From positions 1 through 35,157 of IMG/VR virus record IMGVR_UViG_3300042402_005929: a DNA stretch of 35,157 bases; one strand, 5' to 3'. This stretch comes from a virus. The notes beneath the pieces are model-generated. The model was not told the DNA's origin. It worked only from the letters and a program-made list of their open reading frames with translations, and did no database searches. Of this stretch, positions 14,301-35,025 are shown piece after piece. The translations under genes were made by a program, and so were the position numbers. Each line of letters begins with the position of its first letter. Positions within the stretch are counted from its first letter, which is position 1.

Positions 14301-17300
14301 ACCATCACAAGTCCATACCTAACAGAGGGTGCCAAGTTTGGATCTTCTTTGTCAGTATCGTCGGACTCTACAACATTGATTGTTGGTGCACCTGGGGCTG
14401 ATCTTGTTGAACCCACAATAATCGACACCGGCACCACATATTTTGATGATCGAAGCACAACCTTTTCAAACATTGAAAATAATTCGGGTGTGGTATACTC
14501 ATATGACTTCCTACCCAGCGCAGAATCTTCTGTCAGCAATCCAGGCAAGTTTGTGTTTGGTCAACAAATCTATGACAACAGTGTTGCACCACTGGATCAA
14601 TGGGGCAGTTCTGTTAGCTATGTGAGTGGTAGACTGTTGGTTGGATCACCGGGCAGTGACCTTGGCGACAGTGCAGTAAACTTTGGCCGTGTGGCGGTGT
14701 TTGAAAATACAACAAATAGACCAGCTTGGTATCCCATACATGTGCAAGTTCCGGTTGCTGATTCAAGACTGTTTAACAGTGTGTTCATGTATAACCAGCT
14801 ACAGTCTAGCAAAACATACTTCTTTGACTTTATAAACCCCTTGCAGGGCAAAATTTTAGGATCAGCTCGACAAAACATTGATTTTATTGGATCCGACGAT
14901 CCAGCAAGATACAATGCTGGACCAATCAACAACAAAGGAAACTTCTGGGCCAATGACAGAGTTGGTGAAATCTGGTGGGATATCAGCAGTGTGCGTTTTA
15001 TTGATCCATTGCAAAATGATATAACATACATCAGTCGACGATGGGCACAAACTTTCCCTGGAAGTCGCGTAGACATTTATCAGTGGACAGAAAGCTCGGT
15101 CCCCCCGGCACAATACACCGGACCTGGCACTCCCAAAGACACTGTCAGCTACACAGTGAGAGCAGTGCTGAATCAACAAGGCGTTTTTGAAACCAGGTAT
15201 TACTACTGGATAACCGGAATTGATACCATCAACACTGATGCTGGAAAAACTCTCAGCACAGTTGGAATTGCAAGATACATTGAAAACCCCAGAAGCTCAG
15301 GTATTCCTTACATTGCTCCTATTGATGCCAGCACTGTTGCAATCTACAACGGTTTAGAATATCTAAGTGCATCGGACACTGTGATTCATATCGGCTACGA
15401 CCGAGAATTCAACGATGACAACATTCACACCGAATATGAATTGATCGCTCAAGACAAGCCTGACAGTTTCTTGAGTGCAAATTTGTACCGCAAGCTACAA
15501 GACAGTTTCTGCGGAGTAAACACCACAGGTGCTGCTGTTCCTGATGTGTCATTGAGTATTGCTGAACGCTATGGTGTGCAGTATCGTCCTCGACAGAGCA
15601 TGTTCGTCGACAGATTTATTGCGTTGGAAAATTATCTAACCTACGCTAATTCTATTTTGTTGACATTGCCTATATCAGAGAGTCGCACATTTATCTTATT
15701 GAACAGTGCTGAGCCAGAACCCACTGCTGCCAGCGGCGAGTGGAATATGAGATTGGCAAATATACAAGAGCTTGGGTATCAAGATCTCAACGAAGTTCCT
15801 TTGGGATATCGATATTTGGTTGCTACCGACAGCACCAACGATGGTCTTTGGAGCATCTACCAAGTTCTACAGACAACCGAAGTTCTTGGTGGGCAAAGAT
15901 ACACACAGCTATCAAGAGTTCAAAACTATGACACTCGTAAGTATTGGAATTATGTCAATTGGTATGCGGTTGGATACAACAGCAGCATAGTTCCCTTGTT
16001 TGAAGTTTCTAACTATGCTGCATTGGCCACAGTGGAATTTTCAACCCCGGTGGGTGGCAGTGTCAAAGTCACTGCCAATGCTCAGGGCAAATTTGAAATA
16101 TATCAAAGAACTATTTTGGGTTGGGACAGAGTGGGACTAGAAGACGGAACTATTCAGTTCAAAGAAGAGTTGTGGGACTACAGTCTGGGAAGATTTGGAT
16201 TTGACGTTGAAGTATTTGATGCACAGTATTTTGATGCTGAGCCAGTGATTGAAACTAGAAAAATCGTTCAAGCCATCAACGAAGAACTGTTCATTGACGA
16301 TTTGGCAATTTACAGAAACCGTGCATTGATTTTGATGTTCAACTTTATTTTAAGCGAGCTTCAGGCACCAGAATGGTTGATGAAAACCAGCTTGATCGAT
16401 GTGAATCATAAAATTCGTGAACTGCTGCCATTCCAGATTTTCCGTCAGGATAATCAAGACTTTGTGTTGGATTATATTCAAGAAGTCAAACCTTATCACG
16501 TTCAAATTCGAGAATTTAATCTAGCATACAATGGTCAAGATCAATATGGTGGCGATTTGACCGACTTTGATTCTCCGACATATTACAATAGATTGCTGGA
16601 TATTCCTCAATATGTCAACCCTGTATTACTGCCATACGCAAAGAGCTCTGCTGTGGGCACAGGAACTCCTAATAGCATTGCTGACACACCTGCAGATGCA
16701 GAAATTTGGACCCAATGGCCTTGGAGCAACTGGTTTAACAATTATCTACTCAGCGTAGAAGAGGTCAGTATTATTGATGGTGGCGAGGGATACACAGAAC
16801 CACCGATTGTCACAGTTACCGGTGATGCCTTGGTTCCTGCTGTGTTAGCAGCAGTGATCAACAGTGCAGGAAAAGTAGTTGCTATTGATGTAATTGACCC
16901 AGGATCTGGTTATTCAACCACAGCAGTGATTACCATCGAACAAGGCAACGGTGTAGGGGCCAGAGCCTATGCAGTGATGGGCAATTCGCTGGTTCGATCA
17001 ATTCGAACCACAATCAAATACGACAGATTTGAATATAATTCAGATATTGTCGACTGGACTGCGGGAACTCAGTATACGCAAGGAACCCAGGTCAGATACA
17101 ACAACCGAGTGTGGAGTGCAGACAGCACTGTTCAGAGCACAGAGTTTGATCCTGAGCAATGGACATTGGTTCCTGCTTCTACACTCAGTGGTGTAAACAG
17201 AACCATGGGATTCTATACACCCACTGTGAATGAGCCAGGACTACAGTTGCCATTGTTGGTTGATGGTGTAGAGTATCCTGGAGTTCAGGTTGCTGGTGTA

Positions 17301-22748: not shown

Positions 22749-23054
22749 ATGAATACTGAAAACGTTATTGCTCATGCACGAGCGCGGTTTGATCATGAGG
22801 CTGCACGACGAGTGCTGAGAGAAAAATATCAAGCCAAAATGATTTTTGCCTATCGCGGAGGGATGTGGGCAGCAGGCCCTGAACTTCAAACTATCTTGTC
22901 GACTTGCCCAGACGCAGAAGCGGTGATCTTGGATCTTTATCAAAATCCAGTTCGAGTTGACGTCAAGGAACTACTTGTTATGAGTCAGCAACGCTGGCAA
23001 GAACAAATGAATGCATGGTTGGTAGAGCACGAACAAAACAGTCAAAAAAGATGA
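22749..23054 (+). CDS. Conserved small phage protein, function unknown
   Basis: A 101-aa protein opening the second gene block. The sequence is helical and charged at both ends (ENVIAHARARFDHEAARRVL and ELLVMSQQRWQEQMNAWLVE) around a short beta segment, MIFAYRGGMWAAGPEL. I have the impression of similar proteins in aquatic T4-like phages but know no function. There is no signal peptide, no Cys pair likely to bind metal and no DNA-binding motif. No Shine-Dalgarno sequence precedes the ATG (TACTTCAATG), consistent with the near-leaderless transcript suggested by the -10 box just upstream. It ends in an ATGA overlap with the next gene. Confidence 0.65.
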   Translation: MNTENVIAHARARFDHEAARRVLREKYQAKMIFAYRGGMWAAGPELQTILSTCPDAEAVILDLYQNPVRVDVKELLVMSQQRWQEQMNAWLVEHEQNSQKR

Positions 23055-23857
23055 CCACCGGCGCACTTATATTTGCTTTCAACAACGAAAAAACCAATTA
23101 CGTTGCCATGGCTCAATGGAGTGCCAAGCGAATTCATCACTGGCTCGACATTCCAGTTTCGATTGTTACAGATTCAACAGATCCTCAACTACAGCAACAA
23201 TTTGACCAAGTCATCAACACAGCACCCGAAACTGGAGGCCGGAGATACTTTGAAGATTATGCAGACACTGTGTCTTGGCACAATGCCGGAAGAACTGATG
23301 CTTATAGGCTGAGTCCGTATGATCGAACTCTGGTGCTGGATTCCGATTACGTTGTGTGCGGCCAGCAGTTACGACAATTGTTAGAGGCACCACAGGATTT
23401 TTTAGCGCATCGCACTGCATTTGATATCACTCGTCCCGATGAATCGTTTTTGAACACATTTGGTCGCAATCAATTTCCCATGTGGTGGGCCACGGTTATG
23501 TGTTTTAGAAAGACAAATACCACACAATATATCTTTGATACAATGACCATGGTCAAACAAAACTGGTCGCACTATCGAGCACTGTATGGCATCGGCGAGC
23601 ACAATTATCGCAACGATTATGCACTGAGTATTGCCCTGGGACTGGTATCTGGACACACACTCAACGTTGATTCAATTCCCTGGGCATTGGCCAGTGTGGT
23701 ACCTTCGTCAGAATTATCTGTGATCAATCACGATCCTGAAGTATGGGACATCAAGTTCAAAGACATTGGTAACAAGACAAAATCCATTGGATTGTTTGGA
23801 CAAGACTTCCATGCCATGGGTAAACATCATTTGGAGAAAGTAATTGAAGCCTGTTGA
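23051..23857 (+). CDS. GT-A-like glycosyltransferase-related protein
   Basis: This 268-aa protein starts at ATG 23051, chosen over an in-frame ATG at 23015 because it gives a 4-nt ATGA overlap with the previous stop and begins directly at the first strand (GALIFAFNN). The layout is that of a nucleotide-diphospho-sugar transferase fold: first strand with an N-rich loop, then VSIVTDSTD, then LVLDSDYVV with a DxD motif at D97-S98-D99, which would bind metal and the sugar nucleotide. A late histidine in GQDFHAMGKHHL (H254) is placed like the metal-binding His of GT8-type enzymes. It probably transfers a sugar, but donor and acceptor are unknown. It is followed by a distant paralogue. Confidence 0.65.
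   Translation: MTTGALIFAFNNEKTNYVAMAQWSAKRIHHWLDIPVSIVTDSTDPQLQQQFDQVINTAPETGGRRYFEDYADTVSWHNAGRTDAYRLSPYDRTLVLDSDYVVCGQQLRQLLEAPQDFLAHRTAFDITRPDESFLNTFGRNQFPMWWATVMCFRKTNTTQYIFDTMTMVKQNWSHYRALYGIGEHNYRNDYALSIALGLVSGHTLNVDSIPWALASVVPSSELSVINHDPEVWDIKFKDIGNKTKSIGLFGQDFHAMGKHHLEKVIEAC
23833..23846 (+). promoter_or_regulatory. Ribosome site and TTG start for the second GT-A-like gene
   Basis: GGAG at 23833-23836 lies 7 nt before a TTG at 23844. There is no ATG or GTG in the same frame nearby that keeps the first strand (YIIPAFN), so the ribosome site decides for TTG. It lies inside the 3' end of the previous gene. Confidence 0.6.
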
Positions 23858-24620
23858 GGAACGCGGTTACATTATTCCTGCATTCAACACAGGCACAGTG
23901 GACTATGTTGACTGTGCTAGAACACTGGCTAAGACTCTGTTACAGCATCATCCTGCGGCACGTATTTGTTTGTTGACCAATGCAACTGACGCCACGGACG
24001 AATCATTGTTTGCTCATGTTCGAGTAGTAGAAGATATTGACAAAGCCAATCCCTTTGCTAACGACTGGCTGGTATTTCATCAAACACCTTTTAGGCAAAC
24101 CATCAAACTAGAAGCCGACATGATGGTGGCATCGGCAGTGGATCATTGGTGGACCATGTTTGAAAATCGAGATGTTGTGATAAGTCAAGGTTGCAGAACG
24201 TTTTATGATCAAACAGCAACCAGTAGGAGGTATCGTCAGATATTTGATGTCAACAATCTACCTGATGTTTACAATGCCATCACTTACTGGCGCTTGAGCA
24301 AAACTGCGCAGGATTTCTTTGCCATGGTTAGATCTATATTTGAACACTGGCCCGAATATAAAACACTGTTGAAGTTTCCCGAAGATGTGCCATCCACAGA
24401 TGTAGTGTATGCCATGGCAGCACAGATCATGGGACCAGAACAAGTCACACTGCCCCCGGGATGTGGTCCACAGATTGTCCACATGAAGCCAGGTATCAAT
24501 CCTTACACAGCTCGACGCTGGACAGATGAGCTGGTTTGGGAATTCAATCCTTTGAGGATTCAAACTGTGGCTCAATGGGGATTTGTGCACTTGAATGTCA
24601 AGGATTGGCACCATGAATGA
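23844..24620 (+). CDS. GT-A-like glycosyltransferase-related protein (second copy), TTG start
   Basis: This 258-aa protein overlaps the previous gene by 14 nt and uses TTG with GGAG seven bases upstream. Its plan repeats the preceding protein: first strand YIIPAFNTGTVDYVDCARTL, second strand ARICLLTNATDATDE, and a central strand TIKLEADMMV where the DxD position reads E90-A91-D92. The acidic pair ExD could still bind metal but is unlike the DSD of its neighbour. Later segments include DVVISQGCRTFYD and ITYWRLSKTAQDFF, with the conserved-looking PGCGPQIVHMKP near the end supplying a late His. It probably uses a different donor or acceptor from its neighbour. Function is inferred from fold pattern only. 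Confidence 0.6.
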   Translation: MKPVEERGYIIPAFNTGTVDYVDCARTLAKTLLQHHPAARICLLTNATDATDESLFAHVRVVEDIDKANPFANDWLVFHQTPFRQTIKLEADMMVASAVDHWWTMFENRDVVISQGCRTFYDQTATSRRYRQIFDVNNLPDVYNAITYWRLSKTAQDFFAMVRSIFEHWPEYKTLLKFPEDVPSTDVVYAMAAQIMGPEQVTLPPGCGPQIVHMKPGINPYTARRWTDELVWEFNPLRIQTVAQWGFVHLNVKDWHHE

Positions 24621-24960
24621 TACTACCGAAAACTTCTGGCAAGTTTGGAACAACTTGGAACCTTGGCAACCTCCGCAGGTGTTTTGGAGACTGTATTATG
24701 ATGACACAGGCTTTCCGTTGTTTTACACCCAAGAGGAAAAACCAGGTAACTACATTGATGTAACACCGGAACAATATCAACGGGCCAGTATGCGTGTGCG
24801 AGTTCGCAATGGGCAGTTGGTAGAACTTGCCACAAATCCTGTTAAAAAATTACAGCCCAGCACCACAGGAACATCATGCCATCCCGGTGATGTCAGCGTT
24901 GTTGTTTCTGTAGACGACAAGCACCAATGTTGGAGAACAAAAACAAATGAAACAAATTGA
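24613..24960 (+). CDS. Unidentified small protein
   Basis: A 115-aa protein. The ATG at 24613 is preferred to the in-frame ATG at 24595 because AGGA (24601-24604) lies 8 nt before it and because the overlap with the previous stop is then 8 nt, in line with neighbours. The sequence begins with aromatic residues (FWQVWNNLEPWQPPQVFWRL), continues YYDDTGFPLFYTQEEKPGNY, and ends with a short Cys-containing segment CHPGDVSVVVSVDDKHQCW. Nothing points to catalysis. Since it is embedded between glycosyltransferase-like genes it may be an accessory factor of the same pathway. I do not recognise a family name. Confidence 0.6.
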   Translation: MNDTTENFWQVWNNLEPWQPPQVFWRLYYDDTGFPLFYTQEEKPGNYIDVTPEQYQRASMRVRVRNGQLVELATNPVKKLQPSTTGTSCHPGDVSVVVSVDDKHQCWRTKTNETN

Positions 24961-25873
24961 CGTAGCAGATCTAGACTGCATTTATCTAACTTATGACGAA
25001 CCACAACGTGAAGAATTTTGGGTCAAAATTAAGAATATGGTGCCTTGGGCACGACGGGTGGATGGTGTTAAAGGCAGCGATGCTGCTCACAAAGCGGCGG
25101 CCGAGGCCAGTAGCACTGATAGATTCATTCTCATCGACGGCGACAATCTCCCCGATCCGAGCTTTTTTAATCAAACGCTTGTTCTTCCTGATCAAGAATA
25201 TGAGAACGCTGTGTTCCGCTGGCGAGCACGTAACCATGTCAATGGACTGATGTATGGCAACGGCGGCCTGAGTTCTTGGACCAAGAGTTTTGTTGCTGCC
25301 ATGCAGACCCACGAAGCATCAGACGGACGAACTGAAACGCAAGTGGAGTTTTGCTTTGATCCCTTGTATTGGGCCATGCATGATTGTTTTTCTACTACAT
25401 ATCCCAATGGCAGTGCGTTTCATGCCTGGCGTGCAGGATTTCGTGAGGGTGTTAAGATGTGTCTAGATCGGGGAAGAAAACCATCGATCAGTGAATTCCA
25501 AAATCGTGTGCACAGCAAAAACCTAGACAACCTGACCATCTGGCACAATGTTGGTGCAGATGTTGAGTATGGGGAATGGGCCATTGCTGGATCTCGCATG
25601 GGCACATATATGACCATGCTTACGCAGTGGGACCACACGCAGGTGCAAAACTTTGATGCGCTAGCAGAATTGTTTAAGACCATAGAGAATGATCAACCGA
25701 GACTAGTTGCTAATAGGCTTGCCACTGAGCTCAATTCTCAACTTGACCTGCCGATGATTATTTTGGAAAATGAACAATCGACATTTTTCAAACGACACTA
25801 CAGATCTAACTGGCACAATCGTGGTGTCATGGTCAGAGAAATTGATGTAATTAGACAACAAGAAGGCTGGTAA
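24947..25873 (+). CDS. GT-A-like glycosyltransferase
   Basis: This 308-aa protein starts at ATG 24947 with GGAG at 24932-24935 and overlaps the previous gene by 14 nt. The first strand LDCIYLTYDEP, the segment RRVDGVKGSDAAHKAAAEAS and the strand FILIDGDNLPD follow the GT2 plan: an acceptor-side 'G...A.n.a' helix, then a DxD motif at D64-G65-D66. Beyond it, NAVFRWRARNHVNGLMYGNG and LSSWTKSFV resemble the acceptor side of family 2-like enzymes in phages. The C-terminal third (from about 230) is helical and may be a separate partner-binding part. The 3' terminus (IRQQEGW) lies within the first copy of a 22-bp direct repeat. Donor and acceptor are unknown. Confidence 0.65.
   Translation: MKQIDVADLDCIYLTYDEPQREEFWVKIKNMVPWARRVDGVKGSDAAHKAAAEASSTDRFILIDGDNLPDPSFFNQTLVLPDQEYENAVFRWRARNHVNGLMYGNGGLSSWTKSFVAAMQTHEASDGRTETQVEFCFDPLYWAMHDCFSTTYPNGSAFHAWRAGFREGVKMCLDRGRKPSISEFQNRVHSKNLDNLTIWHNVGADVEYGEWAIAGSRMGTYMTMLTQWDHTQVQNFDALAELFKTIENDQPRLVANRLATELNSQLDLPMIILENEQSTFFKRHYRSNWHNRGVMVREIDVIRQQEGW
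25852..25873 (+). repeat. 22-bp direct repeat, copy 1
   Basis: The last seven codons and stop of the GT-A-like gene form one copy of a 22-bp sequence repeated at 26520-26541 with 20 of 22 bases identical, including a 15-bp perfect core CAAGAAGGCTGGTAA. The core also contains the AAGG ribosome site of the following gene. Together the copies bracket the sulfotransferase-like gene. Confidence 0.8.
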
Positions 25874-25874
25874 C

Positions 25875-26501
25875 ATGATACCCATGATAGATCCAAACAA
25901 AGTAGGTACCTTGATTCTGGGGTATTACCGCAACGGAACACACTTCCTTAAAGATGTTATAATAGATCAAAATCCATTGATTCGACAATATGATGAAGTT
26001 TGTAATGACAACACAATAGCTGAACTTGAAAAATTAACTGTGCTTTCTGGATACAAAGTTTGCATCCTTAACAATACTGTACCCAAGTTTTTTTTAGCAG
26101 GGCGTAGAGATCTACTAGAAAAATGGCATGTGATAAATCTAACAAGAAATGACAAGATACATCATTTCATAAGTCATTGGTTCTGGCAACAAAATACCGT
26201 GCAAGAAAGATTTCAAGATTCTGGGCAATTTCGGCACCATGGCACAGATCACCGTAGTTATAAAAATTTCGTGAGTCAGGGCCGGAACACATGTAACACA
26301 GAATCGATTATTGTTTGGTTGCAAGAACAACTGATAAATCATCATTTGCCCGGTGATGTCACGGTAGACTACAGTGAATTACCAAATTATGCCACAGACA
26401 ATATACAATGGCAACCAAACAAGTACGATACAATAGCTCTTGAAGATCTGTTTGACAATCACAAAGAAATACAACAGCTACTAGGTAATTTTACCATATG
26501 A
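25875..26501 (+). CDS. Divergent sulfotransferase-like protein
   Basis: This 208-aa protein has AAGG in the direct repeat 8 nt before its ATG. The N-terminal strand-loop LILGYYRNGTHFLKDVI (13-29) matches the 5'-phosphosulfate loop of PAPS-dependent sulfotransferases ('l.gypRSGTtfL'), with N20 in place of the usual S. A second block, HVINLTRNDKIHHFISHWFW (85-104), resembles the 3'-phosphate motif 'vi.ivRnP.d...Sy..', with R91 and S100 as candidate ligands, spaced one residue wider than usual. The rest is not recognisable. The gene is visibly more AT-rich than the genes before it. The call is moderate: a P-loop fold is likely, the sulfotransferase activity and acceptor are inferred. Confidence 0.55.
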   Translation: MIPMIDPNKVGTLILGYYRNGTHFLKDVIIDQNPLIRQYDEVCNDNTIAELEKLTVLSGYKVCILNNTVPKFFLAGRRDLLEKWHVINLTRNDKIHHFISHWFWQQNTVQERFQDSGQFRHHGTDHRSYKNFVSQGRNTCNTESIIVWLQEQLINHHLPGDVTVDYSELPNYATDNIQWQPNKYDTIALEDLFDNHKEIQQLLGNFTI

Positions 26502-26519: not shown

Positions 26520-26541
26520 TAGACGGCAAGAAGGCTGGTAA
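26520..26541 (+). repeat. 22-bp direct repeat, copy 2
   Basis: This copy lies in the 39-nt gap before the SGNH-like gene and ends on the A of its ATG. In one frame it still reads RRISRRQEGW followed by TAA, matching the IRQQEGW terminus of the GT-A-like protein, so it looks like a relic of that gene's 3' end. It supplies GAAGG, the ribosome site of the SGNH-like gene, at 6 nt spacing. Confidence 0.75.
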
Positions 26542-27038
26542 TGAATAAAATGTATATAGACGGATGTAGTCTTGTTTATGGAGACGGACTTCCTAGAGAT
26601 AAGTGCCTGGGGCAATTGTTTCAAACACACGGTGGTTACAATGTAACTGACCTGAGTAGATCAGGTAAAAGTAATCTTGCGATAGCACTGGATGCTTATC
26701 AAAACTATCAACAGCATGAAATTTTTATTTTAGGATTCACATTTTCATCAAGATTTTACTTAAAATACAATAATCAAAATTTAGATTTTTTTGCTGGATC
26801 AAAAAATAATAGTTTTAGTATTGATGATGGAGCACTGGATCAAGCACATGTCAACGTTTACAAATATTTTTATACAGTGTTTGGTCATCCGTTTTGTGAT
26901 GATCTCAGTGATATGGTAGTCGACGGTATTCTGAGTTTTTTAAAATCACAAAATAAGAAAGTGATTGCGTTTAGTTGGGAAAAAGAAATACTAAGTCAAA
27001 CATATTTTACCCATATATACCGCCTGATCGTAGATTAA
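26541..27038 (+). CDS. SGNH-hydrolase-like protein, frame-disrupted (N-terminal part)
   Basis: The visible frame gives 165 aa. The N-terminus MYIDGCSLVYGDGLPRDKCL matches block I of SGNH hydrolases (GCS in place of GDS, nucleophile S10), followed by YNVTDLSRSGKSNLAIALDA, where G and SN correspond to the glycine/asparagine part of blocks II-III. The strand EIFILGFTFSSRFYLKY and KVIAFSWEKE fit the core. The last residues (EILSQTYFTHIYRLIVD) do not fit the family, while the -1 frame over the same bases continues with a typical SGNH ending (see the next feature). So this frame is missing the block V catalytic Asp/His. Base composition is AT-rich like the previous gene. If whole, it could remove O-acyl groups from glycans. 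Confidence 0.55.
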   Translation: MNKMYIDGCSLVYGDGLPRDKCLGQLFQTHGGYNVTDLSRSGKSNLAIALDAYQNYQQHEIFILGFTFSSRFYLKYNNQNLDFFAGSKNNSFSIDDGALDQAHVNVYKYFYTVFGHPFCDDLSDMVVDGILSFLKSQNKKVIAFSWEKEILSQTYFTHIYRLIVD

Positions 27039-27112
27039 ATGACGGTCATCTGAATCAGAACGGAATGATGGATCTTTATAACTATCTACAAAATATAAAT
27101 GGCAGAGAGTAA
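26975..27112 (+). pseudogene. Out-of-frame C-terminal block of the SGNH-like gene
   Basis: In the frame one base back from the SGNH-like frame, codons from 26975 to the TAA at 27110-27112 read ..KSNIFYPYIPPDRRLN then DGHLNQNGMMDLYNYLQNIN. D-G-H-L-N is the expected SGNH block V with catalytic Asp and His. The switch would take place near the A5 run at 26980-26984 (GGGAAAAAG). A six-A version would join the two halves without loss. The restored gene would overlap the next start (27099) by 14 nt, the same overlap as at three other junctions of this operon. Confidence 0.6.
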
Positions 27113-28490
27113 AAGTCAATTTCAAAATTCAGCTGAGCAAATGAAATCTCAACTGGGCCCTGCATTGTGTTTAGCCAAATGGCAGCAGGTTAGTTTACAC
27201 CTAACAACTGGGCATACCAACAGTTGTTATCATCCCCCATTGCATCAAATTGATGCTAGTTTATTGGCCAATGACCCCGGCGCTCTTCACAATACCCCAC
27301 ATAAAAAACAGCAACGTGTGATGATGCTGCGCAATGAGCGTCCTTCAGAATGCCAATACTGCTGGAACATGGAAGACCTTGGCAAGATGAGTGATCGCCA
27401 TTATAGATCAGGCGAACCCTGGGCAGCAGAACACTTTGAGGAGATTGCGAGTGGAAAATCAGAGAATCCCGTCCCAAGTTATGTGGAAGTCAACTTTAAT
27501 CACGCTTGCAACCTCCGCTGTAGTTATTGCAGCCCTCAGTTTAGCAGTAGTTGGGCTGACGAAATTGCTAGGCACGGAGCATATCCTACCAATCGTCCTC
27601 ACAATGATCCTGTTCATTTTCAGGGCAGTAGAAGACCCATTCCCGCACGTGAGGCGAATCCTTACGTTGATGCTTTTTGGCAGTGGTGGCCCACGCTTTA
27701 CCCACAGCTACGTCATTTTAGAATGACCGGGGGCGAGCCCTTAATGGATCGCAACACACATCGAGTGCTTGATTATGTGATTGAAAACCCCAGTCCGCAT
27801 CTACATTTGAATGTGACCAGTAATTTTTCAGTGGACGAACGGCTTTGGCAAAATTATTTAGACAAAGTCAAACGTATCTGCGACGGACGCATTGAACATT
27901 TCATGCAGTATGTGAGTCTAGACGGGTGGGGATCACAAGCAGAATACATGCGACACGGGCTGGATTTCGATCTGTTGTGGGACAGAGTCAATCAATTCTT
28001 AACTGAAATTCCAGGATATTCCAGTATCACATTTATTGTGACCATGAACAACCTCAGCGTCACTACCCTGGGTTCTTTGTTTTCAGGCATACTGGGACTG
28101 CGCAGACTGTATAGCAAAACATATCAACGAGTTTGGTTTGACACACCTGTGCTGCGACAACCCGAGTGGCAAAGTCTGCAGATCTTGCCCGAGAGCTATG
28201 TTGATCAACTGGAAACAGTGTGGGCCTGGATGCTGAATCCCTGCAGACACGATCCCAATCCCGATCCCATGCATGTGTTCAAGGATTATGAAATTGCCAG
28301 GCTGGATCGCGACATTGCCTGGATGCGTGAAGGGCAGAGCATGGATCCGCAGTTGTTGGCACAACACCGAGCAGACTTTTACAGATTCTTTTCAGAACAC
28401 GATCGCCGCAGAGGCACAGATTTTAATCTAGTATTTCCGGAAATGACTGCATTCTGGAAACAGTGCGAGTATCATGCCAAGCACAGTTAA
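27099..28490 (+). CDS. Radical SAM enzyme 1 (N-terminal twitch region)
   Basis: This 463-aa protein holds the radical SAM triad C137-x3-C141-x2-C144 (HACNLRCSYC) for the SAM-cleaving 4Fe-4S cluster and the MTGGEPLMD motif that contacts SAM. Upstream are four cysteines, C24, C43, C85 and C88 (LCLAKW, SCYHPP, CQYCWNME). Their spacing fits an auxiliary cluster of the SPASM/twitch type, but placed before the radical SAM core, as in a family of N-terminal-twitch radical SAM proteins known from aquatic phages. The acceptor is unknown; related SPASM/twitch enzymes modify peptides, proteins or sugars. The start overlaps the restored SGNH frame by 14 nt. It belongs with enzyme 2 to subgroup A (shared 'C.AKW...SC.HPP.H' N-terminus). 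Confidence 0.85.
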   Translation: MAESKSQFQNSAEQMKSQLGPALCLAKWQQVSLHLTTGHTNSCYHPPLHQIDASLLANDPGALHNTPHKKQQRVMMLRNERPSECQYCWNMEDLGKMSDRHYRSGEPWAAEHFEEIASGKSENPVPSYVEVNFNHACNLRCSYCSPQFSSSWADEIARHGAYPTNRPHNDPVHFQGSRRPIPAREANPYVDAFWQWWPTLYPQLRHFRMTGGEPLMDRNTHRVLDYVIENPSPHLHLNVTSNFSVDERLWQNYLDKVKRICDGRIEHFMQYVSLDGWGSQAEYMRHGLDFDLLWDRVNQFLTEIPGYSSITFIVTMNNLSVTTLGSLFSGILGLRRLYSKTYQRVWFDTPVLRQPEWQSLQILPESYVDQLETVWAWMLNPCRHDPNPDPMHVFKDYEIARLDRDIAWMREGQSMDPQLLAQHRADFYRFFSEHDRRRGTDFNLVFPEMTAFWKQCEYHAKHS

Positions 28491-29541
28491 ACTCATACTT
28501 GATACATTCAGCGAAGTCTATCCCATGCTGAGATCCCGTGCTCATGACGAGTTTTGGGATTTGAGTCAGCACGACACTGTGCCAGGTGCTGTGTATGTGA
28601 TAGGACGACAACAGTATATAGACAATTGTGACCGTGTGAGGGACATGGCTGAATCTGGAATTGTGCAGGTAGTAATGAGCAACCCGCACGAAGGATCTGC
28701 CACATTGGTTGGGCAATTAACACACCTAGGTCTAATAGATCTGGCCCAGCAACACAAAATATTAGTGATTGGTGGAGGAGACATGCCTCCGGAATGGCCT
28801 TGTTTGCAATACGACAAGTTTCTGCCAGAAATATTGGACTACGAAGAAAATCTACAGGCACAGACGCAAGCAGATCAAATATACACCAAACAACATAAAC
28901 CATATAAATTTCTTTTTTTGAACGGGCGTCGACGACGACACCGAAGAGATTTAATCGATAAGTTGAGAGATATATTGGACTCATCTCTATGGACCAATTT
29001 AGATGCAGGCCCTGGGCTGTCACGCACGTTGCCGCCTGAATATGAAGTGCCGCGCTATCAAGATACTAGCAATCCTGTGTCGGATCACAGATATGTTAAA
29101 TTTGATTTGTTTAAAAATGAGTGGGGAGAAATATATCTATATCCCAAGCCGTATATTGATACCTATTTTAGTCTGATAACTGAAACAGTGTTTGAAATTC
29201 CTTATAGTTTTAGAACAGAAAAAATATGGAAACCCATTGTGATGGGGCATCCCTGGATAGCAGTGGCCAATCGTGGCTTTTATCGAGACATGCACAATCT
29301 GGGATTTCAAACATTTGCACATGTCATTGACGAATCGTTTGATTTGATAGACAACAATCAAGATCGTCTGGATCGTATTGCTGAGGTTGTGCGTGACTTG
29401 TGTCAACAAGATCTTGCGGCTTTCTTGAAAGAGTGCTACAATGTAAGTAAATACAATCAACAACATCACAGGGAAATGGCAGTTCGAGTTCGCCAGGAAT
29501 TCCCCCAGCGTTTTTTCCAGTTTATCAATGAACGATCTTGA
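28474..29541 (+). CDS. Glycosyltransferase-like protein between two radical SAM genes
   Basis: This 355-aa protein overlaps radical SAM 1 by 17 nt and radical SAM 2 by 14 nt. The N-terminal half has Rossmann-like strands (AVYVIGRQQYID, GIVQVVMSNPH, KILVIGGGDMPPEW). A central KFLFLNGRRRRHRRDLIDKL (145-164) is a family hallmark in phages. The C-terminal half has YFSLITETVFEIPYSF then RTEKIWKPIVMGHPWIAVA (247-265), matching the 'E.tE.....(f)itEK..kpi..G.PfI' donor-binding pattern of GT-B enzymes such as GT10 fucosyltransferases and exostosin-like proteins. It is therefore a probable sugar transferase; exact family and sugar are not known. Its position inside the radical SAM array suggests that a glycan is involved in the same pathway. 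Confidence 0.65.
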   Translation: MPSTVKLILDTFSEVYPMLRSRAHDEFWDLSQHDTVPGAVYVIGRQQYIDNCDRVRDMAESGIVQVVMSNPHEGSATLVGQLTHLGLIDLAQQHKILVIGGGDMPPEWPCLQYDKFLPEILDYEENLQAQTQADQIYTKQHKPYKFLFLNGRRRRHRRDLIDKLRDILDSSLWTNLDAGPGLSRTLPPEYEVPRYQDTSNPVSDHRYVKFDLFKNEWGEIYLYPKPYIDTYFSLITETVFEIPYSFRTEKIWKPIVMGHPWIAVANRGFYRDMHNLGFQTFAHVIDESFDLIDNNQDRLDRIAEVVRDLCQQDLAAFLKECYNVSKYNQQHHREMAVRVRQEFPQRFFQFINERS

Positions 29542-30856
29542 ATATCGCCAAGAAGTCTTGGACAAGTTAAGTGCTAGTTTTTGTGCAGCCAAATGGTATA
29601 ATGCTACCATTTGGTTAGGCTCAGGCATGACTACCAGCTGCCATCACCCGCCGGCCCATTTGGTGGATGTCGATCAAGTTCGCAGTAACCCCAAGCTGCT
29701 GCACAACACTGATCAAAAGAAAGACGATCGTCGAAAGATGTTGGCAGGCGAGCGCCCTGCGGGTTGTGAGTATTGTTGGAAGATTGAAGACATGGGCCGC
29801 GACGCTGTGAGCGATCGTGTTTACAAAAGCAAAATATATCCCATAGAGGCCTTGCATGCTGCTAGAAATACACCACCGGATCAAGACGTCAACCTCCATA
29901 CACTTGAAATTGCTTTTGACCGCACTTGTCAGTTTGCTTGCAGTTATTGCAACCCAGCGTTTAGTTCAACATGGGTGCGAGATATTCGACGCAACGGAGC
30001 CTATACAGGGCTTGTCAGCGACGGCCGCAATCATTTTACCCATGCTCATGATAGTGCGCAACTTTGGGACTATGGACAGCCTAACCCATACATTGATGCT
30101 TTTTTTGCTTGGTGGGAGACGGATCTACATCGCACACTACAGGAGCTCAGAATCACGGGAGGAGAGCCCTTCATGTCCGGGCACACCTGGAGACTCATTG
30201 ACTGGTTCCGGGACAATCGCGGCCGTAGCAAGACTCGTTTGGCCATCAATTCAAATCTTGGTCCCGAAATAGATATCAAACGTTTGCTAACCAGCACACA
30301 GGACTTGGATATTGAGATTTACACCAGCCAGGAAGCTGTGGGCATACAGGCCGAATATATCAGAGATGGCTTGGACTATGGCCGTTGGAAAACCAATGTA
30401 TTGACCTTGTTGAATGCTGGCATCACTGTGCATGTAATGTGCACCATAAACGCATTGTGTCTGGAAAGTTTGAGCGATCACCTAGACTACTTGATGCTGC
30501 TGAAACATCGCTATGGACGAGACAAGTTGAATTTCACGCTGAACATTTTGAGATTCCCCAGCTTTCAATCAGCGCTGGTGCTGCCAGAAAATCTTAGAAA
30601 ACACTTTCAGAAAGATCTACAGCAGTGGCTCAATCAAAATGGCCACAGTGATCGGCTGCACGAACACGAAGTAAATCACACACAGAGATTGATTGATTAT
30701 CTGGATGTTGTCAAAACTCCTCACTCGGACGCATTTGACATGCCCAAACTACACAACGACTTTGGTGAATTTTATCGTCAATTTGATCAGCGCAGAAAAA
30801 AAGATTTTGTGAAAACATTTCCGATTATTGGAAAATGGTACGAGAATTTACAATGA
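29528..30856 (+). CDS. Radical SAM enzyme 2 (N-terminal twitch region)
   Basis: This 442-aa paralogue of enzyme 1 shows the radical SAM triad C134-x3-C138-x2-C141 (TCQFACSYC), RITGGEPFMSG for SAM binding, and the N-terminal cysteines C19, C38, C80 and C83 (FCAAKW, SCHHPPAH, CEYCWKIED). The sequence shared with enzyme 1 includes 'LLHNT..KK..R..ML..ERP..C.YCW', ANPYVDAFWQWW versus NPYIDAFFAWW, and a final FP..... block, so the two probably arose by duplication and then separated by a glycosyltransferase gene. The overlaps at both ends (14 nt and 4 nt ATGA) indicate coupled translation. No clear ribosome site precedes the ATG. Confidence 0.85.
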   Translation: MNDLEYRQEVLDKLSASFCAAKWYNATIWLGSGMTTSCHHPPAHLVDVDQVRSNPKLLHNTDQKKDDRRKMLAGERPAGCEYCWKIEDMGRDAVSDRVYKSKIYPIEALHAARNTPPDQDVNLHTLEIAFDRTCQFACSYCNPAFSSTWVRDIRRNGAYTGLVSDGRNHFTHAHDSAQLWDYGQPNPYIDAFFAWWETDLHRTLQELRITGGEPFMSGHTWRLIDWFRDNRGRSKTRLAINSNLGPEIDIKRLLTSTQDLDIEIYTSQEAVGIQAEYIRDGLDYGRWKTNVLTLLNAGITVHVMCTINALCLESLSDHLDYLMLLKHRYGRDKLNFTLNILRFPSFQSALVLPENLRKHFQKDLQQWLNQNGHSDRLHEHEVNHTQRLIDYLDVVKTPHSDAFDMPKLHNDFGEFYRQFDQRRKKDFVKTFPIIGKWYENLQ

Positions 30857-32532
30857 CCCCGGAACAACAAAGAAAAACGCTGAATATAAAATACCGCATA
30901 GTGGGTGAAATTGATTTGAGCCACTGGTATCATCACAATTATGAGCAAGCCTGCGAATGGCTGCAACAACAACTACGCAACCTGCGCCGGGACCATTACG
31001 ACACTGATCAACGCATTGTGTTGACCTACACATCCGATCAATATGTAAGTAGCGGGCCAGGACTGATATTAAAGAATCTACAAATTGCATTAAATGAAGT
31101 AGACATTACCAGTTGTTTTATAGTTCTGTTGACCACTAACCCAGATATACATGCCAATGTCGCTGAACTGCAGAATCTAAATTCTGACAGCAATCAAATC
31201 GAATTTGTGATATGTGAAGGAGAATTTCAACGCCAACAATTGGAAAAATATCCGCACAGCAGAAAAGAAGACTATCAATATGGTTCAGTGAATCCTATTA
31301 AAATCAATGTGCATGATTTAACTGATCGTGAAAAGTTCTTGCTCACTGACTCCCGAACATTCTGCATGTATCCTTGGATACACATACATGCTTATCCCAC
31401 TGGTGAAGCTTATCCCTGCTGCTACGCTGAAATGAAACCTGGTATTGTGGGCAATTGTCGCACACAAACATTACAAGAAATATGGTATGACGAGCCCATG
31501 CAACGCCTGCGCGACGACATGTTAAACGAGCGTGAACACCCTGCCTGCACACGTTGTTACGAGCAAGAAGCCGCGGGGTTCTTCAGCGGTCGTCGCAGTG
31601 CCAACAAACATCACGGACACCACATAAAGAAGCTGGAGTCAAATCCTTTTGAAATGACTTATTGGGATATTCGTTTCAGTAATCTCTGTAACTTAAAATG
31701 TCGTAGCTGCGGGCATATCTTTAGTAGTCAGTGGTATCAGGATCAAGCAAAGCTAGCAGGCCCTGAATGGAAACTCAACAACTCGGTGCTGAACTATGCA
31801 GGCCGCGACGAGCAAGACATGTGGCAGCAACTAGAGCTGCACTTGGATTATGTAGAACAAATATACTTTGCTGGCGGCGAGCCTCTGCTGATGGAAGAAC
31901 ACTACAATATCCTGGAAGAACTACTTCGACGCGGTAGAACTGATGTTAAACTGATATACAACACAAACTTCACGCACACAGATCTAAAGGGTCGCAGTGT
32001 GTTTGAATATTGGAAGCAGTTTCAATCGGTGGCTGTGGGTGCCAGTTTGGATGCCCAAGGTGCAATGGCAGAATATATTAGAAAAGGCACAGTTTGGCAT
32101 GACGTCATAAAGAACCGTCATGACATGATTCGTGTCTGCCCGCAGGTGGATTTTTACATCAGTCCCACGCTGAGTATAATGAATGCCTGGCACCTACCAG
32201 ATTTTCATCGAGAATGGGTGGCACACGGACTGATTCGCGCACAGGATTTGAATGTAAACATACTACAAGATCCTGCGCACTATAGAATAGACATTGCCCC
32301 GCAGGAATACAAACAACAACTGGAAGACAAATACCGACGGCATCTGAGTTGGCTCAGCGATAGAGATCCCTTGCAACGTGCCACACAGGGTTTTGAGTCA
32401 GCTGTAACTTTTATGAACGCCCGGGACAACAGTCATTTAATTCCACAATTCTGGGCTCGGACTCAGCAGTTGGATGCCATTAGAAATGAAAATGTGTTGG
32501 ATGTAATTCCAGAATTGGCAGCACTGAAATGA
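30853..32532 (+). CDS. Radical SAM enzyme 3 with a long N-terminal extension
   Basis: The start at ATG 30853 (559 aa) is chosen over an in-frame ATG at 30835 because it gives an ATGA overlap with enzyme 2. About 165 residues precede the twitch part and contain QRIVLTYTSDQYV, GLILKNLQIALNEVDITSCF and IVLLTTNPDIHANV, an alpha/beta-like segment I cannot name. Then come C171, C189-C190, C232 and C235 (FCMYPWIHIHAYPTGEAYPC, CTRCYEQE) and the radical SAM triad C279-x3-C283-x2-C286 (NLCNLKCRSC) with FAGGEPLLME. The 'FC.yPW.....pG...PCC' start marks subgroup B, shared with enzymes 4 and 5. The extension may bind a substrate peptide or partner. The 3' end overlaps enzyme 4 by 4 nt. Confidence 0.85.
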   Translation: MTPEQQRKTLNIKYRIVGEIDLSHWYHHNYEQACEWLQQQLRNLRRDHYDTDQRIVLTYTSDQYVSSGPGLILKNLQIALNEVDITSCFIVLLTTNPDIHANVAELQNLNSDSNQIEFVICEGEFQRQQLEKYPHSRKEDYQYGSVNPIKINVHDLTDREKFLLTDSRTFCMYPWIHIHAYPTGEAYPCCYAEMKPGIVGNCRTQTLQEIWYDEPMQRLRDDMLNEREHPACTRCYEQEAAGFFSGRRSANKHHGHHIKKLESNPFEMTYWDIRFSNLCNLKCRSCGHIFSSQWYQDQAKLAGPEWKLNNSVLNYAGRDEQDMWQQLELHLDYVEQIYFAGGEPLLMEEHYNILEELLRRGRTDVKLIYNTNFTHTDLKGRSVFEYWKQFQSVAVGASLDAQGAMAEYIRKGTVWHDVIKNRHDMIRVCPQVDFYISPTLSIMNAWHLPDFHREWVAHGLIRAQDLNVNILQDPAHYRIDIAPQEYKQQLEDKYRRHLSWLSDRDPLQRATQGFESAVTFMNARDNSHLIPQFWARTQQLDAIRNENVLDVIPELAALK

Positions 32533-33743
32533 ACTTACCACACGATCAATTCTGTGTGCTACCCTGGATCAGTTTGGAAGCAAGCCCCATTGGCACTGTG
32601 CGCCCTTGCTGTCTGGCCGATAACGAGTTAGTAGATGACGCAGGTGAAAAATTTAGTTTGCTTACAGCCGACTTTGCTAACATACAAAACAGTCAGAACA
32701 TGAAATCCTTGCGCGAAGATTTTCTTGCTGGTCGACGGCCGCAAACTTGCCGCAAGTGCTGGGATGAAGAACGTGCCGGGCGCACCAGCAAGCGTATGCA
32801 CACCCTGGATCGACTCAAACACATTTTAGGTGATCAAGAGTGGACCACAGATGCCAAGCCCTTGATATTCTTGGATCTTAAACTGGGCAATATTTGCAAT
32901 CTCAAATGTCGAATTTGTGGATCATGGAGTTCAAGTCAATTTGCCACCGAAGAAATAAATGATGCACCACCTGAAGAAAAGAAATCGACCTATGCCTATC
33001 AGATGTTGCGAGCTGGTGCGTGGCCTCGTGAGAACACACAGTTTTGGCAGCAGATTGATCAGTGCCTAACTGATATACGTTACATCGAATTCACTGGTGG
33101 CGAGCCATTCATGATTCAGGAACACTTTGCCATGTTGCAGGGCATTGTGGATCGTGGTATTGCACACCAAGTGGAAATACATTACAATACCAATGGCACA
33201 CAATATCCTGAGGGTGCTGAAGAAATTTGGAAGCATTTTAAAACTGTGGAAATTGCCATCAGCATTGATGATCTCGACAAGCGATTTGAATATCAGAGAT
33301 CAAACGCTGTGTGGACTGAAATTTTGCACAATCTCAATCGTTTTCGAGAACTGCGCCAGCGCCAACCTAATATTCAGTTACAGTGTTGCAGCACTGTGAA
33401 CGTTTTCAACGTGCGCTATATTGATCAACTGGCACGTTGGATAGATCGACAAGGGTTTGATTTTGTGTATTGGAACATGATGCACGATGCTTGGTATTTT
33501 TCAATTGCTTGCTTGCCTGAACATGTCAAAACTGAAGTAATTGTGCATCTAGAGTCAGCCACAGTCCCATCGCAATGGCGTGACGAGTTTGATCGTATTT
33601 GCGATTTCATGCGTCGAGGTGCCAGCACTGATGGATCTATGACTGCTACAAAAATACAAGAATTGGATCGCAAACGCCGACAAAATTTTGCAAAAGTTTG
33701 TCCCGAAATGGCCAGACTATTGAACTATGATTATAAAGCCTGA
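32529..33743 (+). CDS. Radical SAM enzyme 4 (N-terminal twitch region)
   Basis: This 404-aa enzyme belongs to subgroup B. The N-terminal cluster residues are C9, C27-C28, C74 and C77 (FCVLPWISLEASPIG, RPCCLAD, CRKCWDEE) and the radical SAM triad is C123-x3-C127-x2-C130 (NICNLKCRIC), followed by FTGGEPFM. The strand EIHYNTNGTQYP and then VEIAISIDDLD fit the following parallel strands of the half-barrel. Coupling to enzyme 3 is by ATGA; the 3' end overlaps enzyme 5 by 17 nt. The substrate is unknown. No insertions or breaks are visible and all key residues are present. Confidence 0.85.
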   Translation: MNLPHDQFCVLPWISLEASPIGTVRPCCLADNELVDDAGEKFSLLTADFANIQNSQNMKSLREDFLAGRRPQTCRKCWDEERAGRTSKRMHTLDRLKHILGDQEWTTDAKPLIFLDLKLGNICNLKCRICGSWSSSQFATEEINDAPPEEKKSTYAYQMLRAGAWPRENTQFWQQIDQCLTDIRYIEFTGGEPFMIQEHFAMLQGIVDRGIAHQVEIHYNTNGTQYPEGAEEIWKHFKTVEIAISIDDLDKRFEYQRSNAVWTEILHNLNRFRELRQRQPNIQLQCCSTVNVFNVRYIDQLARWIDRQGFDFVYWNMMHDAWYFSIACLPEHVKTEVIVHLESATVPSQWRDEFDRICDFMRRGASTDGSMTATKIQELDRKRRQNFAKVCPEMARLLNYDYKA

Positions 33744-35025
33744 TACCATGTGTCTTGCACCTTGGGTGCACACATATTTAAGTCCGCAAACAGAACGACG
33801 CTTGTGCTGTGCCAGTCGTGAGCCTGCTCAGAACTTTGAGCAGTATATTGACACAGCCGCAGGCACTGGACGTTATATTCCTATCACTCTAGAACAGCAT
33901 TGGAATTCAGAGCACATGCGATCAGTGCGCCGTAGAATGATGGCTGGAGAAACCCTACCTGAATGTGAAGTATGCAATGACAAACTCCTTAACACTGCGG
34001 TCTACAGGACCTACTTCGATCATTTATTTCAGCACAAACTCGCCGACATATACGCTAACACAAGCCCAGATGGCTCAACGACTATGGTTCCTGTTTCTTG
34101 GGATTATAGGTTTTCAAACCTATGCAACTTTAAGTGCAGAACCTGTGGAGATATGCTTTCAAGCGCCTGGGAAACTGAAGAAAAAATTCACAACATGGTT
34201 GATTGGACAAATCCAAAAAATAACTGGATGCGATCAGATATACGTGCCAAAATCAAACACTTTCAAGAGAATCAAGTTGAAGCCGAATTTGCTGCCGCCG
34301 TGGAGCGACACACAGTGGAAGAAGTCTATTGGGTTGGAGGAGAGCCGCTAATGTATGAGCAGCATTGGCGCTACATGCAAAGAATCGTGGAGCTCGGAGA
34401 TGGACCTAAGTTATATGCTAGATACAATACTAATCTTAGCCGCGTGGATTATCGTGGCTGTAATTTATATGATGATATCCTTTCGAATGTTAGGGACTGG
34501 CAAATCTGCGCCAGCCTCGACGGAACAGGACAAATCGGAGAATACATCCGCACAGGTTTGGAATTCTCCACCTTTTTAAATAATTTTGAACAAGGGGTCA
34601 ACCGGGCCAGGCATCCGAGACAAATGCGTCTTGATTTTACCCTCACTCTGCCTGGAATGTTTGAAACTGGTGCGATGGAAAGATTATCACAGAAGTATGG
34701 AGTACAATTGTTAGCCAAGGTTATTTTCTCTTTCTCTCCAGACATTGTGATGAGCCCGCTGTGCTTGCCCCGTGTGTTGCTAGATCCCTGGCTAGACGAA
34801 TTGATTGATCAATCCACCTCTGATGCCATGCGCGATGTGCTGACGCAGTTAAAGACACGCCCCACGTTTGAGGAACAATGGCCAGACACACACAAGTCTG
34901 CATTGATCCGGGGAAAACAACGAATTCTAAAACTAGAACAGATTAGAACACAGACTATTACAATGACAGATATTCTAGCACAAAGATCTGATGTGCTGAA
35001 ATGGTGGAACGAAATTGAAGCTTGA
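33727..35025 (+). CDS. Radical SAM enzyme 5 (N-terminal twitch region)
   Basis: This 432-aa enzyme is the third of subgroup B. Cysteines C9, C27-C28, C80 and C83 (MCLAPWVHTYLSP, RLCCASRE, CEVCND) provide the N-terminal cluster and C133-x3-C137-x2-C140 (NLCNFKCRTC) the radical SAM cluster; WVGGEPLMYE gives the SAM motif. ICASLDGTGQIGEYIRTG matches the loop seen in the other members (SLDGWGSQAEYMRHG in enzyme 1, ASLDAQGAMAEYIRKG in enzyme 3), a conserved active-site face of the whole group. The C-terminal 100 residues are helical (LDEL..., ILKLEQIRTQTITMTDILAQ). The gene overlaps enzyme 4 by 17 nt and the next gene by 11 nt. Confidence 0.85.
   Translation: MIIKPDTMCLAPWVHTYLSPQTERRLCCASREPAQNFEQYIDTAAGTGRYIPITLEQHWNSEHMRSVRRRMMAGETLPECEVCNDKLLNTAVYRTYFDHLFQHKLADIYANTSPDGSTTMVPVSWDYRFSNLCNFKCRTCGDMLSSAWETEEKIHNMVDWTNPKNNWMRSDIRAKIKHFQENQVEAEFAAAVERHTVEEVYWVGGEPLMYEQHWRYMQRIVELGDGPKLYARYNTNLSRVDYRGCNLYDDILSNVRDWQICASLDGTGQIGEYIRTGLEFSTFLNNFEQGVNRARHPRQMRLDFTLTLPGMFETGAMERLSQKYGVQLLAKVIFSFSPDIVMSPLCLPRVLLDPWLDELIDQSTSDAMRDVLTQLKTRPTFEEQWPDTHKSALIRGKQRILKLEQIRTQTITMTDILAQRSDVLKWWNEIEA

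Follow-up and report, generated by a model that had tools for sequence, protein, structure and literature searches.

The window analyzed here is a 35-kb virus fragment from IMG/VR (IMGVR_UViG_3300042402_005929, 35,157 nucleotides) that ends in an array of five genes, R1, R3, R4, R5, and R6, each encoding an N-terminal-twitch radical S-adenosylmethionine (SAM) protein, with a sixth gene, U2, between R1 and R3 (Table 1). The left part of the window encodes baseplate proteins and, also before the array, tail-fiber-like proteins. The baseplate wedge protein shares 34% identity over 99% coverage with the wedge protein of jumbo phage Atu_ph07 and matches phrog_10646 at 4e-288; the source is a lake-dwelling giant phage.

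Five Radical SAM Proteins of One Family

All five proteins score 274.2–390.9 bits in a hidden Markov model search with NCBIfam NF033640 (N_Twi_rSAM), above its curated whole-protein cut-off of 170 bits, in agreement with the original prediction, made from the letters of the DNA alone, that they are N-terminal-twitch radical SAM enzymes. Each contains a CX3CX2C triad, a GGEP motif, and an upstream C...C...CxxC group. The second position of the upstream group is CC in R4, R5, and R6 and a single C in R1 and R3, and whether C27 or C28 is the counterpart of the single cysteine varies with the alignment used. Pfam SPASM (PF13186) matches the N-terminal region of R4 (46.2 bits, 5.5e-12, residues 177–242) and of R5 (24.6 bits), both above cut-off, gives R6 15.3 against a cut-off of 21.5, and has no match in R1 or R3; R5 also matches Pfam Radical_SAM above cut-off (38.6 bits). 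R4 carries a variable N-terminal extension of 172 amino acids that many of its orthologs lack. Pairwise identity among the five is 18%–31%.

Assignment to a known equivalog was rejected for all five, with best scores of 34.7 for viperin (cut-off 180), 31.6 for MoaA (284), 29.8 for StsB (625), and 16 for AhbD (500), and with QueE likewise far below its cut-off. No model of a maturase for ribosomally synthesized and post-translationally modified peptides (RiPPs) came near its own cut-off for these proteins.

The neighboring open reading frames (ORFs) of the core R1-U2-R3-R4-R5-R6 overlap by 17, 14, 22, 4, and 17 bases, which is consistent with translational coupling. The genes had been described as standing in tandem; the five family members do form one array, interrupted by U2.

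Conservation of the Array

Related loci were collected by IMG/VR protein searches with R1 (425 loci) and R5 (108 loci), 80 of each being kept, a sample that gives no measure of the number of jumbo phages without the five-gene set. A total of 109 related loci cover the region from GT25, upstream of the array, to X345, a gene past R6 (hereafter spanning loci). All five R genes are present in 108 of them, in the exact order R1-R3-R4-R5-R6 in 105, and U2 is present in 106. The order in relatives is nearly invariant and reads o22-GT23-GT24-o24-GT25-(variable)-R1-U2-R3-R4-R5-(variable)-R6-X345-carbamoyltransferase; beyond it there are usually an amidinotransferase gene and, on the opposite strand, two U2-like genes.

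A tree of 107 proteins resolves every R group as a single supported clade (support 100 for R1, 99 for R3, and 98 for R6). Of 795 orthologs, 792 have the full cysteine/GGEP motif (>98% of copies), with R1 keeping it in 155 of 155, and the median ratio of nonsynonymous to synonymous substitution rates (dN/dS) of 0.06–0.10 for the five genes indicates purifying selection. Indeed, as first proposed, the key residues are intact and none of the genes looks decayed. Across all R groups, 18 positions are invariant, including all seven cysteines, whereas a further 33 are fixed within each group yet differ between groups, many of them on or next to the core strands of the model. Together with the low identity between members, these invariant and group-specific positions form the pattern of five old, distinct functions. 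Given the order kept in 105 of the 109 loci, the distinct supported clades, and the purifying selection, the array is not a chance cluster, and the conserved, non-random association that a neighborhood survey was proposed to look for is present.

The family is also represented beyond the array. In 14 long relatives (214–364 kb) there are 8–19 family matches each, with 6–18 among the matches listed above cut-off. In loci L217, L218, L229, and L232, from several of the long relatives, extra N_Twi_rSAM genes, some of them paired, recur next to terminase-like and UvsX-like genes.

Gene Layout around the Array

After the tail genes, the window holds the small conserved o22 and o24, the three putative glycosyltransferase genes GT23, GT24, and GT25, two variable-slot genes (S26 and H26), and then the core. 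The contig stops 132 bases past R6, and the downstream part of the cassette is visible only in relatives. Neither o22 nor o24 has a Pfam or PHROG match, and a search of isolate phages with o24 was also empty. GT23 has no relative in PDB or Pfam. The GT24 profile weakly matches glycogenin chains in PDB (E 0.02, positions 6–99). GT25 keeps its position upstream of the array and matches Pfam Glyco_tranf_2_3 at only E 0.12; it has no PDB relative and nothing similar among isolate phages. The start of H26 resembles an SGNH hydrolase when read by eye. Further to the left, positions 5373–19571 in the baseplate/tail region form a single ORF of 4732 amino acids that matches FG-GAP and CBM_5_12.

Table 1. 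Genes of the Cassette within the Window (aa, amino acids)
Gene	Position	Strand	Description
o22	22749..23054	+	Small conserved protein after tail-fiber genes; 110 loci
GT23	23015..23857	+	Conserved, 280 aa; unconfirmed glycosyltransferase candidate (DSD motif); conserved synteny
GT24	23844..24620	+	Conserved 258-aa protein, putative GT8-like
o24	24595..24960	+	Small conserved protein between GT24 and GT25; 126 loci
GT25	24947..25873	+	Conserved, 308 aa; putative GT-A glycosyltransferase on weak evidence (DGDN motif)
S26	25875..26501	+	208-aa protein, variable slot upstream of R1; best match for only 5 ORFs of the fetched set
H26	26541..27038	+	165-aa protein, variable slot; 14-member family in same slot
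R1	27099..28490	+	N-terminal-twitch radical SAM protein, 463 aa; NF033640 314.7 bits
U2	28474..29541	+	355-aa GT-B-fold glycosyltransferase-like protein
R3	29528..30856	+	N-terminal-twitch radical SAM protein, 442 aa; NF033640 280.9 bits
R4	30835..32532	+	N-terminal-twitch radical SAM protein, 565 aa; NF033640 390.9 bits at residues 173–563
R5	32529..33743	+	N-terminal-twitch radical SAM protein, 404 aa; NF033640 340.2 bits
R6	33727..35025	+	N-terminal-twitch radical SAM protein, 432 aa; NF033640 274.2 bits

Radical SAM Core and Twitch Region

The AlphaFold2 model of R5 has a predicted local distance difference test score (pLDDT) of 90.6. Its core (residues about 110–365) resembles viperin, BlsE, DesII, and anSME (Z 12–13, root-mean-square deviation 3.4–4.3 over 190–220 residues), and the full-length model finds fold neighbors among proteins of uncultured Caudovirales (TM score about 0.75–0.86 in the best rows). 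The N-terminal domain hardly appears in the fold-match list, because the list is filled by the core. At the profile level, the whole protein weakly matches the twitch of BtrN (E 3e-4), and for the isolated N-terminal domain BtrN is the top PDB match, yet at E 0.33. The cysteine spacing is 18/47/3 in R5 and 18/45/3 in BtrN (residues 169, 187, 232, and 235, read from the alignment and presumed by us to be the cluster ligands). Together, the SPASM matches and the BtrN-like spacing support a twitch domain with a predicted second cluster in the N-terminal region.

U2 and the Downstream Partners

The U2 model (AlphaFold2, pLDDT 85.6) has an α-1,3-fucosyltransferase as its best Foldseek match (E 1.6e-3), which the C-terminal half of U2 resembles. 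By VIA, fucosyltransferase (Z 12.5) and T4 β-glucosyltransferase (BGT; Z 12.8) are tied, and, as regards the GT10 family, other GT-B enzymes tie with FucT as fold matches. At the sequence level, neither Pfam nor PDB gave a convincing match for U2.

Past R6, relatives encode X345, a conserved 345-amino-acid protein with no match in PDB, Pfam, or isolate phages, followed by a NodU/CmcH-type carbamoyltransferase, which in relative L012 matches PF02543 (2.8e-38) and PF16861 (2.5e-48), both above cut-off. The carbamoyltransferase lies at most two genes from X345 in 91 of the 109 spanning loci, and each of the 14 long relatives has exactly one copy. The amidinotransferase, found in 40 of the 48 loci with enough downstream sequence, matches AGAT at 2.3e-18 and StrB1 at 1.1e-13 (range for AGAT, StrB1, and SxtG, 1e-12 to 2e-18), and the CTxDxRRRG segment of its C-terminal Cys region aligns with solved members.

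The variable slots, upstream of R1 and between R5 and R6, hold many unrelated genes, including a GDP-fucose-synthase-like epimerase, an AMP ligase, flavoproteins, and further radical SAM genes. In L083 (15141–19100), the slot contains an AMP ligase resembling benzoate-CoA ligase, along with two flavoproteins that bear a weak resemblance to CmlS and QhpG, and ORF lengths suggest the same content in L084 and L085. The variable region of 17 phage loci (L125, positions 6288–7208, and 16 more) encodes a secreted protein that by eye resembles TctC-type solute-binding proteins. L012 (19000–21207) encodes a 736-amino-acid protein with repeats of ~60 residues (DYSWVPDPGDPPYIYVFGNQW...), whose length differs between relatives and which has no convincing Pfam match.

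Related Arrays in Other Phages and in Bacteria

Four contigs binned with marine bacteria carry tail-fiber, GT23-, GT24-, and GT25-like genes together with the R set (about 48% identity at R4); complete sets read R1-R3-R4-R6-R5, so that only R5 and R6 are swapped. These contigs (L197–L200, binned as Pelagibacter, Betaproteobacteria, Verrucomicrobia, and Rickettsiales) look like mis-binned phage with the same cassette, and the sole one that runs far enough extends into genes for a carbamoyltransferase, a DegT aminotransferase, an epimerase, and a PIG-L protein. A fifth marine contig (L238/L215/L239; 47 kb, phage-like, binned as Rickettsiales) has tail-fiber and transferase genes of the same kind and, after them, about 14 radical SAM genes; genes for UDP-glucose dehydrogenase, a carbamoyltransferase, and an epimerase follow. 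In Vibrio phage K566, four family members are interleaved with glycosyltransferase-like genes.

Six bacterial genomes with 18 N_Twi_rSAM clusters were surveyed. For eight clusters, a GT2 or epimerase gene is found no more than 10 kb away, against 1.6 expected (P about 1e-4). Of eight cellular carbamoyltransferases, four have a family match at a distance of about 7 kb or less. In Halobacteriovorax, a carbamoyltransferase gene directly precedes an N_Twi_rSAM gene, with ABC-2 type export genes nearby. One 2.9-Mb Elusimicrobia bin (G023; loci L202 and L214) has about 80 family matches, many in tandem ORFs of 600–1200 amino acids; in the one ORF checked (in L202), tetratricopeptide repeats precede the twitch and core.

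A Putative Sugar-Tailoring Pathway

We propose, at about even confidence, that the cassette encodes a phage pathway in which five distinct radical SAM enzymes tailor an unusual sugar or glycan destined for virions or the host surface. Carbohydrate tailoring is the best account of the partner genes: U2 has a GT-B fold, the array is linked to carbamoyl- and amidinotransferases, and epimerase genes occur in the variable slots. The likeness of the core to BlsE and DesII, the BtrN twitch match, and the marine, K566, and cellular contexts point in the same direction. The original prediction already spoke of a multi-step pathway with sugar-transfer genes; the five clades, the GT-B partner, and the carbamoyl- and amidinotransferases favor such a pathway, although its successive steps are what we infer, as are the sugar substrates, the individual reactions, their order, and the destination of the product.

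In the proposed mechanism, AdoMet bound to the CX3CX2C cluster of each R enzyme would yield a 5'-deoxyadenosyl radical that abstracts hydrogen from that enzyme's own substrate. The N-terminal [4Fe-4S] cluster, held by the C...C...CxxC group, would serve electron transfer or substrate oxidation, as does the twitch cluster of BtrN and anSME. The substrates would most likely be nucleotide- or glycan-linked sugars. U2 could perform the sugar transfer step, the carbamoyltransferase could carbamoylate a hydroxyl, and the amidinotransferase could place a guanidino group onto an amine. The position of the genes directly after those for baseplate and tail-fiber proteins suggests that the product would decorate tail parts of the virion or the host surface.

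Several observations weigh against sugar tailoring. The conservation described above is conditional on having a member, since similarity to R1 or R5 was what brought the loci into the sample, near-duplicates included. Extra family copies outside the cassette adjoin terminase-, UvsX-, and single-strand-binding-protein-like genes (neighbors named by eye) and not sugar genes, and 10 of the 18 cellular clusters have no GT2 or epimerase gene nearby. The glycosyltransferase assignment of GT23, GT24, and GT25 is unconfirmed, and no nucleotide-sugar synthesis gene is shared by all copies of the freshwater cassette. Finally, the fold neighbors of the core also include the peptide-acting SkfB, anSME, a sactipeptide maturase, and ChlB, so that the fold does not decide the substrate.

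The likeness to SkfB, anSME, and ChlB also speaks for a different view, in which the five enzymes modify phage proteins or a peptide, for example by cross-links, epimerizations, or oxidations in tail-fiber or baseplate proteins, with the glycosyltransferase acting on the same proteins. Many SPASM/twitch enzymes studied act on peptides or proteins, the cassette adjoins tail-fiber genes and giant structural ORFs, and some variable slots hold flavin adenine dinucleotide (FAD) enzymes with a weak resemblance to QhpG and LodB, which modify proteins. However, the family is repeatedly found linked to carbamoyl-, amidino-, and sugar enzymes, and the RiPP-maturase scores given above do not favor a peptide substrate. 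Nor was the small substrate peptide envisaged by the original prediction found: in the core there is no RiPP-type precursor gene next to the maturases, the overlaps of 4–22 bases leave no room there for a further ORF, and o22 and o24, which lie upstream, are without family match, although a precursor gene farther away may exist. A peptide-maturation operon, with neither a precursor gene in the core nor room for one, is therefore less likely than sugar tailoring; we regard protein modification as rather unlikely overall, and yet as a serious rival.

It is improbable that the cassette is a pile of independent accessory genes with unrelated functions, held in an insertion-accepting region beside the tail genes. 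The many unrelated genes of the two slots and the scatter of other family members across phage genomes would fit such a pile, but five fixed clades in one order in nearly all spanning loci would not, nor would marine relatives that keep the set at about 48% identity with a single swap. Least probable of all, and in our estimate very unlikely, is modification of DNA or of nucleotides, such as a hypermodified base, carbamoylated or glycosylated, that would protect against host nucleases. The structural neighbors of U2 do include the T4 enzyme, a DNA β-glucosyltransferase (tied with fucosyltransferase), and the nucleotide-acting viperin and MoaA are near the radical SAM core; yet the genes lie in the tail module, away from replication genes, and some cellular relatives have a surface-polysaccharide context.

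The sugar-tailoring pathway can be put in a wider form, which we offer tentatively as a possibility: a widespread jumbo-phage lineage would carry a conserved multi-step radical SAM pathway, with five enzymes and carbamoyl-, amidino-, and glycosyltransferases, that makes a previously unknown hypermodified sugar for virions or the surface of infected cells, and N_Twi_rSAM would then be a carbohydrate-tailoring family shared with bacterial surface-polysaccharide loci. We know of no reaction for any N_Twi_rSAM protein, and the recurrent linkage to carbamoyltransferases and polysaccharide genes offers a concrete, testable substrate class for the family. If the proposal is true, phages run multi-step radical chemistry on sugars, with a bearing on receptor binding, superinfection exclusion, and evasion of host recognition, and the cassette would be a source of new sugar-modifying enzymes.

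Comparison with Known Systems

By analogy, a comparable enzyme mix occurs in aminoglycoside-type tailoring sets, which combine a StrB1-like amidinotransferase, a TobZ/NodU-like carbamoyltransferase, and a radical SAM enzyme; unlike those sets, the cassette shows no aminocyclitol synthase or known aminoglycoside gene. BtrN, the 2-deoxy-scyllo-inosamine dehydrogenase of butirosin, has a similar twitch cysteine spacing, but its twitch is C-terminal whereas that of the R proteins is N-terminal, and the sequence similarity is weak. The closest family model, NF033640, describes the architecture of all five proteins, an N-terminal four-cysteine twitch followed by a C-terminal radical SAM core; its name states no reaction, and new here are five fixed paralogs as one syntenic set. 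The 255-kb Vibrio phage K566/K567 carries four N_Twi-type genes (two above cut-off) interleaved with glycosyltransferase-like genes, but at about 22% identity, in another order, and not next to tail fibers.

Pelagimyophages carry radical SAM cassettes with glycosyltransferases in their host recognition cluster, and the transferases were suggested to alter the host surface (PMC7029224). The two systems share radical SAM genes next to tail fibers and glycosyltransferases in a large myovirus, but those of pelagimyophages are variable additions, whereas here a fixed quintet is accompanied by a GT-B protein, a carbamoyltransferase, and an amidinotransferase; in freshwater pelagimyophages no such radical SAM genes were reported (PMC7029224). 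A Baltic Sea study listed 261 instances of "ahbD" in viruses and judged inferences about the gene's function speculative (PMC9301287). Some of these instances may belong to N_Twi_rSAM, since N_Twi_rSAM proteins score far below the AhbD cut-off. The open-access literature searched, on twitch radical SAM proteins in jumbo or huge phages or alongside carbamoyltransferases, yielded no description of a fixed quintet with carbamoyl- and amidinotransferases. Together, both the N_Twi_rSAM family and the occurrence of radical SAM genes within host-recognition islands of phages are prior knowledge, and the fixed quintet with its carbamoyl- and amidinotransferases was absent from the papers searched.

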